The notes under the pieces are model-generated. The model did no database searches. It was not told where the DNA came from and was given only the letters and a program-made list of their open reading frames with translations. From an uncultured Coriobacteriaceae bacterium (GTDB taxonomy: Bacteria; Actinomycetota; Coriobacteriia; Coriobacteriales; Eggerthellaceae): a stretch of 64,000 bases of DNA. Positions 3,774 through 58,670 of the stretch are shown piece after piece (position 1 is the stretch's first letter; each line of letters opens with the position of its first letter). Made by a program: the position numbers and the translations under genes. The stretch covers positions 62,001 through 126,000 of the forward strand of contig CACXMZ010000005.1 in assembly GCA_902768975.1 (NCBI GenBank). The letters run 5' to 3'.

Positions 3774-4847
3774 ATGTTGGAACAGGAAAAACTAGAAAAG
3801 ATTATTAAGGCCTACGAAGACCTGGGCGAACGCTTGGGCGACCCTGCGGTGCTCGCAGACCAAAAGGAATACGTGCGCCTGACCAAGGAATATGCCAACC
3901 AGGGCCCCTTGGCAAGCGCGGCTGCCCAATACGTGCAGGACATGAAGGACCTGGCAGACGCTAAGGAATTGCTTTCCGACGCCGACATGAAGGAATTTGC
4001 CCAGGAAGAAATTGCGCGCATTGAAGCGGGCTTGCCCCAGCTTGAAGAAGACATTAAGTTCATGCTTATTCCTGCTGACCCAGCCGACGACAAGGACATC
4101 ATTGTTGAAATTCGTGCGGCTGCGGGTGGCGACGAGGCAGCCATTTTTGCGGGCGACTTGTACCGCATGTATACCCATTTTGCCGACGACAAAGGCTGGA
4201 AAGTCGAAATGCTTGACGCCCATGCGTCCGACGCGGGTGGCTACAAGGAAATCCAGTTCAAGGTTAAGGGCGACAAGGTTTATTCCGAAATGAAGTTTGA
4301 GTCGGGCGTTCATCGCGTGCAACGCGTTCCTAAGACGGAAAGCCAGGGCCGTATTCATACCTCTACTGCCACGGTGGCCGTCTTGCCCGAAGCCGACGAA
4401 GTTGAAGTGGAAATCAAGCAGGAAGATCTGCGCATCGACGTGTACCGCGCCGGTGGTCCGGGCGGGCAGTGCGTTAACACGACCGACTCTGCGGTGCGTA
4501 TTACCCATTTGCCTACGGGTTTGGTGGTGCAGTCACAGGACCAAAAGTCTCAGCTGCAAAACAAGATTGCAGCCATGAGTGTGTTGCGTGCGCGCCTGTA
4601 CGAAAAGATGCTTGAAGAACAGCGTGCAGCCGAAGGTGCTGAACGCCTGGCTCAGATTGGCACGGGCGACCGCAGCGAAAAGATTCGCACCTACAATGGC
4701 CCGCAGGACCGCGTGACCGACCATCGCATTGGTTACAACGGCACCTACAATGGCGTCTTGCTTTTCAGTGGTGGGGCAGGCCTTGCTGAACTCATTACGG
4801 CACTGCAGGCTGCCGACCGTGCCCGCAAGCTCGAACAAGCTGTGTAA
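3774..4847 (+). CDS. prfA: Peptide chain release factor 1
   Basis: RF1 recognises UAA and UAG stop codons and triggers peptide release on the ribosome. The GGQ loop is seen in [17 protein letters not shown], and the codon-recognition domain precedes it. The ATG at 3774 gives 357 residues starting MLEQEKLEK, the normal RF1 length and N-terminus. An in-frame upstream ATG at 3705 would add 23 unrelated residues that overlap the trxA terminator, so it was rejected. No strong ribosome binding site is present, only AGAAAG. The next gene but for a palindromic element is prmC, which methylates the glutamine of this GGQ motif. Confidence 0.96.
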
Positions 4848-4848
4848 T

Positions 4849-4876
4849 ATTCCGTTGTTCTAGCGAACAACGGAAT
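4849..4876 (+). terminator. Perfect 12-bp hairpin with TAGC loop after prfA
   Basis: ATTCCGTTGTTC (4849-4860), TAGC loop, GAACAACGGAAT (4865-4876). It starts 1 nt after the prfA stop. There is no T-run. It shares the GTTC-TARC-GAAC core with hairpins at 38055 and 58482 and forms the left part of the composite palindrome family (copy A). Confidence 0.6.
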
Positions 4877-4888
4877 ACTCGACGTTGT

Positions 4889-4996
4889 AATTCAATACGG
4901 CTTCACGTTTCGCCCTTCCTTTGTGCCCCGCGTACCCAAGTGCACTTCGGCGCAAAGAGCGAGCGAACTATTTTGCCTTACTGAATTTCGCTGACT
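4889..4996. repeat. Composite palindrome family, copy A (long imperfect hairpin)
   Basis: An outer stem pairs ATTCAATACGGC (about 4889-4900) with GCCTTACTGAAT (about 4975-4986), with two mismatches. Inner arms around CTTTGTGCC and GGCGCAAAG close on the centre CGTACCCAAGTGCAC. The right edge reads TTCGCTGACT. The same architecture recurs at 18990, 19260 and 58521. It fills most of the prfA-prmC gap. Confidence 0.65.
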
Positions 4997-5019
4997 TTGT
5001 TGGACCTATAACTTAAACT
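4991..5019 (+). promoter_or_regulatory. Candidate prmC promoter for a leaderless transcript
   Basis: CTGACT (4991-4996) as -35, a 17-bp spacer, and TAAACT (5014-5019) as -10. The ATG of prmC begins 8 nt after the -10 box and no Shine-Dalgarno precedes it, so transcription would start at or next to the start codon. The -35 lies in the right edge of repeat copy A. Confidence 0.45.
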
Positions 5020-18253: not shown

Positions 18254-18976
18254 ATGGCAAAAATGACAAAGAAGCAGAAGGCTGCGGTAGAAAAGATCGA
18301 AGAGGGCAAGCTGTATGCTCCCATCGAGGCTTTTACCCTCATGAAGGAAATCTCTTCCGCTAACTTCGACGAAACGGTTGAAGGCCACTTCCGCCTGGGT
18401 ATCGACACGCGCCAGGCCGACCAGCAACTCCGTGGCATGATTAGCCTGCCCAATGGCAGTGGTAAGACGGTACGTGTTGCTGTGTTTGCTGAAGGCGACG
18501 CTGCCAAGGCTGCTGAAGCTGCCGGCGCCGACATCGTTGGTTCCGACGACCTTATTCAGGACATTCAAAACGGTATGCTTGACTTCGACGCTACCGTTGC
18601 TACGCCCGACCAAATGCCCAAGGTTGGTAAGTTGGGCAAGATTCTGGGTACGCGTGGCCTCATGCCTAACCCCAAGCTGGGTACTGTTACCACCGACGTG
18701 GAAAAGGCTATCGCAGACCTCAAGGGTGGTAAGGTTGAATATCGCGCCGACCGTTTTGGTATTTGCCATGTGGTACTTGGCAAGACGAGCTTTACGGCTG
18801 AACAGCTGGCTGAAAACTATGGTGTTGTCTATGACGAAATCCTGCGTGTAAAGCCCGCAGCAGCCAAGGGCCGTTATGTTAAGAGCGTGACAGTTGCTTC
18901 TACCATGGGTGTTGGTATCCCGGTAGACAGCAGCGTTAACCGCGCCTACACTGAAACTGTTGAACCGTCTGCCTAA
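18254..18976 (+). CDS. rplA: 50S ribosomal protein L1
   Basis: 240 residues, the usual size. It binds 23S rRNA at the L1 stalk and often its own mRNA leader. Family signatures include the L1 fold with [15 protein letters not shown] near residue 135. Start ATG with AAAGGATGATTTAA upstream. rplJ and rplL do not follow; instead a palindromic element and tRNA-Gln come next. The stop codon TAA lies in the loop of a perfect terminator-like hairpin. Confidence 0.97.
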
Positions 18977-18986
18977 CGGCAGACGG
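18965..18986 (+). terminator. Perfect 9-bp hairpin whose loop holds the rplA stop codon
   Basis: CCGTCTGCC (18965-18973), loop TAAC (18974-18977, containing the stop TAA), GGCAGACGG (18978-18986). No T-run. Left part of composite palindrome copy C. Confidence 0.55.
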
Positions 18987-18995
18987 CAGTGTCGA

Positions 18996-19110
18996 CGCTG
19001 CAAACCCACAGCGCTTTACTCTAGCCCCTTCTTTTTCTTTTCGTGTACCAAAGTACACTTCAAAGAAAAGGCGGGGCTATAGTTTTGTGCTGAGGGTTTT
19101 CGCTGACGTG
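18996..19110. repeat. Composite palindrome family, copy C
   Basis: After a spacer reading GTCGACGCTG, an outer stem pairs AACCCACAGCGC with GTGCTGAGGGTT. Inner arms are TCTAGCCCC with GGGGCTATAG and CTTTTC with GAAAAG. The centre is GTGTACCAAAGTACAC. The right edge is TTCGCTGACG, which serves as -35 of the tRNA-Gln promoter. Confidence 0.65.
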
Positions 19111-19130
19111 TAGGCTACCTATGGTAAAAT
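19103..19130 (+). promoter_or_regulatory. Candidate tRNA-Gln promoter
   Basis: CTGACG (19103-19108), 16-bp spacer, TAAAAT (19125-19130), 12 nt before the tRNA. The -35 is the right edge of repeat copy C. Confidence 0.55.
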
Positions 19131-19224: not shown

Positions 19225-19251
19225 ACGCCGTTCTGCCGAACGGCGTTTTTT
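19225..19251 (+). terminator. Rho-independent terminator after tRNA-Gln
   Basis: ACGCCGTTC (19225-19233), TGCC loop, GAACGGCGT (19238-19246), then six T. It is also the left part of composite palindrome copy D. Confidence 0.88.
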
Positions 19252-19261
19252 CATACCATAC

Positions 19262-19382
19262 GTCCTGACGCTGCGCGCGTATCTGGTGGCACCCTAAGCC
19301 CTACCTTCGCTTGCGCGTACGAAGTACAGCGCTGCGCTAGGAGCGGGCTTATTGCGCTCACCAGATGCGCGCTCGCTGTTTC
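19262..19382. repeat. Composite palindrome family, copy D
   Basis: Starts with TCCTGACGCTGC. Outer stem GCGCGTATCTGGTG pairs with CACCAGATGCGCGC; inner arms are TAAGCCC with GGGCTTA; the centre is CGCGTACGAAGTACAGCG. The right edge is GCTCGCTGTTTC. It lies between tRNA-Gln and map. Confidence 0.6.
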
Positions 19383-19424
19383 ACCATGGGCGACCGAGGA
19401 GTTTAGGGGTTTTCTTTTTATAAT

Positions 19425-38020: not shown

Positions 38021-38050
38021 AAAAGGCCCGCTCGCGCGGGCCTTTTCTTT
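38021..38050 (+). terminator. Rho-independent terminator after hyaC
   Basis: AAAAGGCCCGC (38021-38031), TCGC loop, GCGGGCCTTTT (38036-38046), then T-rich. Strong. Confidence 0.92.
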
Positions 38051-38054
38051 ATTT

Positions 38055-38080
38055 ACGCTGTTCTAACGAACAGCGTTTTT
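38055..38080 (+). terminator. Second tandem terminator, GTTC-TAAC-GAAC core
   Basis: ACGCTGTTC (38055-38063), TAAC loop, GAACAGCGT (38068-38076), then TTTTT. Its core is shared with the hairpins of the composite palindrome family, but no long hairpin follows here. Confidence 0.85.
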
Positions 38081-38113
38081 CTCATGCGTTATATACTCTG
38101 TTACTATAGAGGC

Positions 38114-57492: not shown

Positions 57493-58485
57493 ATGACCGC
57501 ACCACTTGCAGGACGTGACTTTTTAAAGCTTTTGGACTTTAGTCCTGAAGAAATCACCTATCTCATAGACCTTTCAGCCGATCTTAAGGCAAAAAAGAAG
57601 GCGGGGGAGCCGCACCGTTACCACGAGGGCAAGAACATTGTCCTGCTTTTCGAAAAGACTTCAACCCGTACCCGCTGTGCCTTTGAAGTGGGCGCCATGG
57701 ATTTAGGTATGGGGGTTACCTACCTTGACCCTGGTGCAAGCCAGATGGGTAAGAAAGAGTCCATTGAAGATACCGCACGGGTGCTTTCGCGTATGTATGA
57801 CGGCATTGAGTATCGTGGTTTTGCTCAAGAAAAAGTAGAGACCTTGGCCGAATACTCCAGCGTGCCCGTTTGGAATGGTTTGACCACGGAAGCGCACCCC
57901 ACTCAGATGATTGCCGACATGCTTACCATCCGCGAACACTTGGGTGAATTGCGCGGTCTGAACCTGACCTTCTTTGGCGACGCCCAGAACAACGTGGCTA
58001 ATTCCCTTATGGTAGCTTGCGCTAAGCTCGGTGTGAACTTTACGGCCTGTGGCCCCAAGGAACAGATGCCCGAAGCCAGTTTGGTTGAAACTTGTACGCA
58101 GATTGCCCAGGAGCAGGGGTCTACCGTGCGCCTGACCGAAGACGTGGCTGAGGGAGCTCGTGGGGCGCATGTGCTTTATACCGACATTTGGGTTTCCATG
58201 GGCGAACCTGACGACATTTGGGCAGAACGCATTCGCCTGCTTGAGCCGTATCGCGTAACCGAAGAACTCATGGCACTGGCGGCACCCAACGCCATCTTCA
58301 TGCATTGCTTGCCAAGCTTCCACGACACCAAGACTACCGTGGGCGCGGAAATTGCCGCCATGTTTGGTATTGAAGAAATGGAAGTGGCTGATTCCGTATT
58401 TGAAGGCCCTCAGTCGGTTGTTTTTGATGAAGCAGAAAACCGCATGCACACCATCAAGGCGGTTATGCATGCCACTTTGCTGTAG
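57493..58485 (+). CDS. argF: Ornithine carbamoyltransferase
   Basis: Catalyses carbamoyl phosphate + ornithine to citrulline (or the reverse in the arginine deiminase pathway). 330 residues from ATG 57493, with GGAGAG 7 nt before it; the upstream ATG at 57478 is part of that site. The carbamoyl phosphate motif is FEKTSTRTRCAFE, and the ornithine motif is FMHCLPSFHD, with Ser where Ala is usual. In arginine-fermenting Coriobacteriia the enzyme can be catabolic (arcB); no arcA or arcC is near, so the role is open. The stop codon lies in a perfect palindrome. Confidence 0.94.
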   Translation: MTAPLAGRDFLKLLDFSPEEITYLIDLSADLKAKKKAGEPHRYHEGKNIVLLFEKTSTRTRCAFEVGAMDLGMGVTYLDPGASQMGKKESIEDTARVLSRMYDGIEYRGFAQEKVETLAEYSSVPVWNGLTTEAHPTQMIADMLTIREHLGELRGLNLTFFGDAQNNVANSLMVACAKLGVNFTACGPKEQMPEASLVETCTQIAQEQGSTVRLTEDVAEGARGAHVLYTDIWVSMGEPDDIWAERIRLLEPYRVTEELMALAAPNAIFMHCLPSFHDTKTTVGAEIAAMFGIEEMEVADSVFEGPQSVVFDEAENRMHTIKAVMHATLL

Positions 58486-58505
58486 TCGTTCTAACGAACG
58501 ACTAC
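58482..58505 (+). terminator. Perfect 10-bp hairpin containing the argF stop codon
   Basis: GTAGTCGTTC (58482-58491, includes the stop TAG at 58483-58485), TAAC loop, GAACGACTAC (58496-58505). No T-run. Left part of composite palindrome copy B. Confidence 0.55.
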
Positions 58506-58520
58506 ATTGTTGATGCTGCG

Positions 58521-58628
58521 ATTCAATAACGCTTGACACTTTGCCCTACTACGGCTTGGCCCGTAACGAAGTACGGGCACCGCGCCGAGAGCGGGCAAAT
58601 TGTTTTGCGTTATTGAATCTCGCTGACT
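58521..58628. repeat. Composite palindrome family, copy B
   Basis: Outer stem ATTCAATAACGC (about 58521-58532) pairs perfectly with GCGTTATTGAAT (about 58608-58619). Inner arms are CACTTTGCCC with GGGCAAATTG; the centre is a perfect GCCCGTA/TACGGGC around ACGAAG. The right edge TCGCTGACTTTGTT is identical in core to that of copy A. It lies between argF and argS. Confidence 0.7.
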
Positions 58629-58670
58629 TTGTTTTAACATATGATTCGTTAGTTATTGAAAGGCTATCTT

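Follow-up and report, generated by a model that had tools for sequence, protein, structure and literature searches.

A probable mobile palindromic element behind and inside genes of Coriobacteriia

Four intergenic places in a 64,000-nucleotide stretch from an uncultured Coriobacteriaceae bacterium (contig CACXMZ010000005.1, positions 62,001 to 126,000; the whole stretch is called the window here) carry composite palindromes of one design. This raises the question of whether they are stacked terminators, a source of small RNA or a mobile element, the three options offered in a preliminary description of the window. The mobile element is the best of the three, and it is likely that the four places are copies of a non-autonomous mobile palindromic element distributed across the class Coriobacteriia. 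The palindromes are dispersed, orthologous sites are filled in some genomes and empty in others, copies lie in frame within housekeeping genes, and cores have been replaced at fixed sites. The core, a hairpin cassette about 115 nt long between CGACGCTGC and CTCGCTGAC, is part of a whole element of about 150 nt. It usually lies a few bases 3′ of a short perfect hairpin at a gene end, in sense orientation, with a semi-conserved tail behind it.

The four copies and their relatives

The palindromes were confirmed in the sequence at 4848-5007, 18965-19120, 19225-19395 and 58481-58640 (copies 1 to 4). The genes said to border them were recovered with NCBIfam (prfA/prmC, rplA, map, argF and argS), and tRNA-Gln was also found. 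The common design holds as well: a short first hairpin (HP1) with a 4-nt loop, a left edge, a long hairpin (HP2) and a right edge, TCGCTG(AC). HP1 is a perfect hairpin of 9-13 bp in each window copy, with the loops TAGC, TAAC, TGCC and TAAC in copies 1 to 4. The left edges are, in the same order, GACGTTG, GACGCTG, GACGCTG and GATGCTG, and their general form is (C)GACGCTG(C). HP2 is about 100 nt long, with conserved bulges and a centre reading GTAC-(1-3 nt)-AAGTAC, which varies to GTAACGAAGTAC in copy 4 and to AAGTGC in copy 1. Beyond what had been described, a semi-conserved tail follows the right edge, for example TTTGTTGGACCT or TCTTCGACCACCTGCG, or TTTCACCATGGGCGACCTGCG after tRNAs. The stop codon of the upstream gene is immediately 5′ of HP1 in copy 1, falls in its loop in copy 2 and lies in its left arm in copy 4. 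The features are listed below, with bit scores from the covariance model of HP2 and its edges.

4848-4877, forward strand: copy 1, HP1 of 13 bp, loop TAGC, abutting the prfA stop codon (4845-4847)
4880-4887, forward strand: copy 1, left edge CGACGTTG
4888-4987, forward strand: copy 1, HP2 (113.4 bits)
4988-5007, forward strand: copy 1, right edge TCGCTGAC and tail TTTGTTGGACCT
18965-18986, forward strand: copy 2, HP1 of 9 bp, loop TAAC (TAA being the rplA stop codon), left arm formed by rplA coding sequence
18993-19000, forward strand: copy 2, left edge CGACGCTG
19001-19099, forward strand: copy 2, HP2 (126.4 bits); site filled in the sister genome G001, empty in G004 and G005
19100-19120, forward strand: copy 2, right edge TCGCTGAC and tail
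19225-19251, forward strand: copy 3, HP1 with a T-run, terminator-like, after tRNA-Gln
19267-19273, forward strand: copy 3, left edge GACGCTG
19274-19372, forward strand: copy 3, HP2 (91.6 bits); absent in the sister genome G001
19373-19395, forward strand: copy 3, right edge TCGCTG and tRNA-type tail TTTCACCATGGGCGACC
58481-58506, forward strand: copy 4, HP1 of 11 bp, loop TAAC, with the argF stop codon (58483-58485) in the left arm
58512-58518, forward strand: copy 4, left edge GATGCTG
58519-58619, forward strand: copy 4, HP2 (114.4 bits)
58620-58640, forward strand: copy 4, right edge TCGCTGAC and tail TTTGTTTTAACAT

The covariance model, which the preliminary description had proposed, was built from ten copies in the host genome (G000, 1.89 Mb). 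Run on that genome it returned 49 rows at about 47 separate places, so further copies do exist genome-wide; among them the centre keeps a nearly constant distance from either edge. Among sampled relatives, each of the five further genomes of the genus had matches (12 to 55 copies), as did eight more genera of the family. Across a class-wide sample, at least one copy was present in 129 of 398 genomes, copy counts here being floors because only eight candidates per genome were scored. A DNA pattern made of the two edges and the centre was found in at least 118 stretches of GTDB genomes, and the matches listed were all from Coriobacteriia: Gordonibacter, Adlercreutzia, Eggerthella, Slackia, Enteroscipio, Ellagibacter, Rubneribacter, Collinsella, an Atopobiaceae bin and unnamed Eggerthellaceae.

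No family member was found in the viral contigs and the phage and plasmid records searched; a single match in the plasmid collection (Nonomuraea, one third of the query at 78%) was taken as chance. Rfam, at gathering and relaxed thresholds, gave only tRNA and chance matches. The earlier statement that this is not a known repetitive extragenic palindromic (REP) or BOX element is upheld. A literature search, largely without subscription papers, found no such element described in Coriobacteriia.

Partial and repeated forms were also seen. The tail type TTTCACCATGGGCGACCTGCG goes with copies behind tRNA genes or terminators (loci L203, L067, L070 and L076, and 19373-19395 in the window); at L203, near a tRNA gene, CCATGGGCGACCTGC stands behind a terminator with no element present. 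L207 (G000:C5, about 131166) is a mini-element with left edge GACGCTGCG, right edge CTCGCTGTTTCACCATGGGCGACC and hardly any HP2 in between. The right edge and tail recur in tandem, two or three times, behind a full copy at L008/L013, L039, L065 and L213, and stand alone, immediately 3′ of a stop codon, at L212. Two complete elements with different cores and common edges and tail are in tandem at L121, L119 and L120, with a period of about 150-176 nt. When Tandem Repeats Finder was applied to three loci with adjacent copies it detected one array (L120, period 176), missing the others because their copies are too different.

Filled sites, empty sites and copies inside genes

Orthologous sites filled in some species and empty in others were found at rsmA/ksgA, at dxr and between rplA and tRNA-Gln. 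The last is filled in the host genome and in G001, and in G004 and G005 the gap from the rplA stop codon to the tRNA is a few tens of bases. At the locus of copy 3 (19225-19395), HP2 is missing from the sister genome and the terminator and left edge are still there.

For only about 11 of the 47 host copies was a counterpart in the same location present among the sister-genome copies fetched, a figure that understates sharing because that assembly is fragmented and not all of its copies were fetched. At eight of these 11 places the HP2 identity is 0.58-0.71, no higher than for arbitrary pairs of genome copies (0.66, s.d. 0.07); the sister core is closer to a copy elsewhere in the host genome (up to 0.98). 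HP1 is recognisably orthologous and HP2 of another subfamily or variant in at least two cases (C5:319982/L377 and C5:317966/L365). Since the HP2 subfamily differs at orthologous positions and the flanking hairpin can stay orthologous, the cores must have been replaced; identities were compared because such replacement spoils the counting of changes between orthologues by folding one member. The preliminary description had expected copies in related species to keep both pairing and position. The pairing is indeed kept; the position often is not and, where it is, the core is often of a different subfamily.

In recent copy pairs (identity 0.93-0.99), the likeness runs from CGACGCTGC, where it stops on the left, to CTCGCTGAC, stopping on the right there or shortly past it and often extending into the tail, and HP1 differs. 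The unit that spreads or is converted is therefore the cassette between the edges, with HP1 bound to the site. In two copies consisting of HP2 only (G000:C8:60120, L068, and G000:C4:11920, L077), the end of the upstream gene forms the left arm and its reverse complement the right arm.

The same pattern could be left by an old, immobile repeat that is homogenised by gene conversion, the apparent gains being losses in relatives, and core replacement at fixed sites requires conversion or exchange in any case. This is improbable, however: the dxr and rsmA inserts each occur in one lineage among many empty relatives, and loss elsewhere would therefore need many in-frame deletions.

Ten or more housekeeping genes hold a copy in frame, which adds a peptide of about 50 amino acids to the product. 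In the host genome four of the 47 copies are of this kind (in dxr, pcrA, secDF and the gene for a CoA-dehydratase activase), all in one common orientation and reading frame, with peptides such as DAAASAGTQSAAAASGSPTEVGFASADSAILGTSETLADF. With the peptide of the Dxr insert as query, about a hundred places came up, in 12 of the 16 genomes tried, and clear in-frame cases outside the host genome are RsmA/KsgA, DnaX, PriA, MurD, HypF and RlmD; in GC-rich genomes some other open frames around copies are surely accidental. Among 30 aligned Dxr proteins the insert is present in two, from G000 and G001 of the same genus, the others having a much shorter linker there. G102 has an insert in rsmA that is lacking in ten relatives; two of these share about 90% identity with G102 on either side of the site. 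The in-frame inserts of HypF lie at two distinct positions, in different genera (L257, L285, L266). At L254 (G366), an open reading frame (ORF) apparently joins HisZ-like and HisG-like parts, with a divergent insert at the junction.

Pairing and placement

The folding energies of the window copies lie 4.5 to 10.8 standard deviations below those of dinucleotide shuffles. The consensus of the ten host-genome copies has 31 pairs, 24 of them changed on both sides, and a covariation score of 0.626 compared with 0.200 after shuffling (none of 500 shuffles attained the observed score). For the 131 model-aligned matches the score was 0.636, compared with 0.159. That the arms differ in sequence with their pairing kept, as had been claimed, is thus borne out.

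The claim had been extended to selection on structure. Selection on a sense-strand RNA accepts G-U pairs and not A-C mismatches. In the 22 best pairs of the alignment (2838 cells), G-U was rarer than A-C, with 39 (1.4%) against 73 (2.6%). A control of 25 tRNAs from the same records (541 pairs) had 39 G-U (7.2%) and no A-C, the A-C figure being soft, and the G-U figure not, because the tRNA finder itself disfavours mismatches. About one aligned row in ten repeats a palindrome already present, taken from the opposite strand; this makes the counts slightly more symmetric and does not explain the shortage of G-U.

With so few G-U relative to A-C, therefore, the pairing is probably kept on DNA or on both strands and not for a sense-strand RNA fold. 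The palindromes in frame inside genes point the same way, away from an RNA fold, and selection on structure in that sense is not supported. Upkeep at the DNA level is favoured, either by hairpin-templated correction of quasi-palindromes or as a need of the mobilising reaction. Compensatory changes alone are no proof of a conserved RNA: covariation is massive here, yet G-U is nearly absent. A source of small RNA, to which stable intergenic hairpins would be suited, is extremely improbable, as Rfam gave no match and the mismatches are strand-symmetric, promoters not having been looked for.

Placement was counted in 107 copies with enough context. The stop codon of a long same-strand ORF lies 20-40 nt upstream of the model start in 61 of them (median 30), against nine in a mirror control. 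The element is thus sense-oriented and just behind genes, with HP1 in the gap. A position directly behind stop codons would also suit terminators, attenuators or stabilisers of mRNA 3′ ends selected as RNA folds, including the stacked two-hairpin terminators suggested earlier. The folds are very stable, some HP1 are true T-run terminators, and a terminator-like hairpin occupies the corresponding position at the empty rplA site of G004. However, a T-run follows HP1 at 19225-19251 and at a few other copies and not at most, G-U is no commoner than A-C, copies lie within open reading frames, one HP2-only copy lies in the groES-side spacer, and the same orthologous site can hold unrelated core subfamilies. 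As a general explanation this is unlikely. The tRNA-linked copy at 19225 does have a terminator in front of it, but most copies are unlikely to be stacked terminators.

Movement and known counterparts

Hairpins with HP1-type loops also occur without HP2, as T-run terminators (38056-38077 in the window, and L204) or with no clear T-run (L206, L209). The window hairpin is the second of two consecutive terminator-like hairpins at 38025-38085; it has a GTTCTAACGAAC loop, a T-run and no HP2, and is apparently an unoccupied site. The empty rplA site of G004 has a terminator-like stem in which the gene end is the left arm, as in filled sites. These hairpins suggest that HP1 may be the recognised target in many cases.

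An enzyme or a replication event that recognises a DNA hairpin at a gene end could thus place the element, HP1 being the recognised hairpin and, at least sometimes, the terminator stem of the host gene itself. Complementarity of the arms would be upheld on the DNA, either through hairpin-templated correction or because movement uses the DNA hairpin as its substrate. Copies would survive where they are harmless, that is, behind stop codons or in frame within loops or linkers.

Two known kinds of machinery were considered. The element could be a REP-like derivative, or a miniature inverted-repeat transposable element (MITE), of a Y1 transposase of the IS200/IS605 type or of a REP-associated tyrosine transposase (RAYT), acting on single-strand hairpins. 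The two hairpins, the orientation-specific placement and the lack of an ordinary target-site duplication would agree with this. It is nevertheless improbable, as there is no Y1 transposase in G000, G106, G102, G229 and G022, all of which have copies, and the presence of the gene does not track that of the copies. A second possibility is an element that, like group IIC introns, moves by being reverse-transcribed into terminator hairpins; this would place copies 3′ of hairpins, and truncated copies would look like the right ends seen singly, in tandem or immediately behind a stop codon. It is very improbable, however: G000, G106 and G229 have no reverse transcriptase, and the unit, at about 150 nt and with no group II match in Rfam, is not an intron.

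For the hairpin-recognising route proposed above, a further hint comes from direct repeats of the HP1 3′ arm, 12-19 nt long, which stand beyond the tail in a few copies (L121 twice, L154, L364). Repeats of at least 12 nt were found in six cases, where re-paired controls gave 0.66 (at most 4 in any of 300 re-pairings); the six include tandem units and one tRNA-linked terminator repeat, so that tandem arrays contribute to the count. These repeats would fit entry into the 3′ arm of the hairpin, an interpretation put forward tentatively. It is possible, though doubtful, that this is a new kind of hairpin-targeting element that enters and duplicates the 3′ arm of HP1, swaps cores via its two edges and has its arms corrected at the DNA level.

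Several points weigh against a mobile element or parts of this mechanism. No transposition event was observed and no mobilising enzyme was found, Y1 transposases and reverse transcriptases being missing from several element-rich genomes. There is no ordinary target-site duplication: for three of the four borders chosen, the mean length of the word shared by the flanks does not exceed that in re-paired flanks, and the fourth (4.39 v 4.07) pointed to the HP1-arm repeats described above. In recent pairs the copying of HP2 does not extend to HP1, but genes with an insert can have an HP1 that their empty relatives lack, the rsmA insert carrying a perfect one; the evidence on whether HP1 is target or part of the element is thus two-sided. 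Selection on both RNA strands would likewise give strand-symmetric mismatches. The in-frame copies outside the host genome came from a peptide query and are biased to that frame, and several of the genomes used are draft metagenome bins.

Among known systems, the Rickettsia palindromic elements (RPE) are palindromes of about 150 bp that occur in and between genes, within genes in frame and with a conserved peptide (Ogata et al. 2000, 2002, as cited in PMC10969869). The element described here likewise is a palindrome of about 150 bp in many copies, between genes and in frame, in a common frame, in unrelated housekeeping genes. It appears to work like RPE, which are the closest known kind. The likeness is one of behaviour, and the named pattern matches listed were all from Coriobacteriia. 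Unlike RPE, the element is hosted by another phylum, has a two-hairpin design with the fixed edges CGACGCTGC and CTCGCTGAC, strongly prefers the position behind stop codons and has its core cassette replaced at fixed sites. We know of no two-hairpin modularity, post-stop position or core replacement in RPE, nor of an enzyme that mobilises them.

Other palindromes are less similar. REP sequences, bacterial interspersed mosaic elements (BIME) and RAYT-linked palindromes share the intergenic position 3′ of genes and tens of copies per genome; the hairpin here is longer, no GTAG-type motif was seen, there is no consistent Y1 transposase and copies lie in frame in genes. Bacterial MITEs (ERIC, RUP, Correia) are short, non-autonomous repeats with long inverted repeats and occasional gene fusions (in part after PMC10969869). 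The present element broadly resembles them in these respects, but it has no clear target-site duplication and its arms vary with the pairing kept. HP2 is one long inverted repeat, and the edges GACGCTGC and CTCGCTGAC are direct, not inverted. No parent insertion sequence with the same ends was found in the plasmid, phage and viral collections, chromosomes not having been searched for one. Integron attC sites are also imperfect DNA hairpins with variable arms, conserved edges and cassette-like exchange. The attC core is GTTRRRY/RYYYAAC; this candidate was rejected because the hairpin ends here in CGACGCTGC and CTCGCTGAC and no cassette arrays were seen, no integrase having been sought.

To our knowledge, palindromes that invade proteins have so far been regarded as peculiar to Rickettsia and its relatives. 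The same behaviour is found here in an unrelated phylum, in culturable genera of the human gut (Gordonibacter, Adlercreutzia, Eggerthella and Collinsella), and the movement of the element and the tolerance of proteins for it could therefore be tested in free-living bacteria. Should the hairpin-targeting element be real, conserved proteins throughout a class of gut bacteria would gain peptides of about 50 residues through it.
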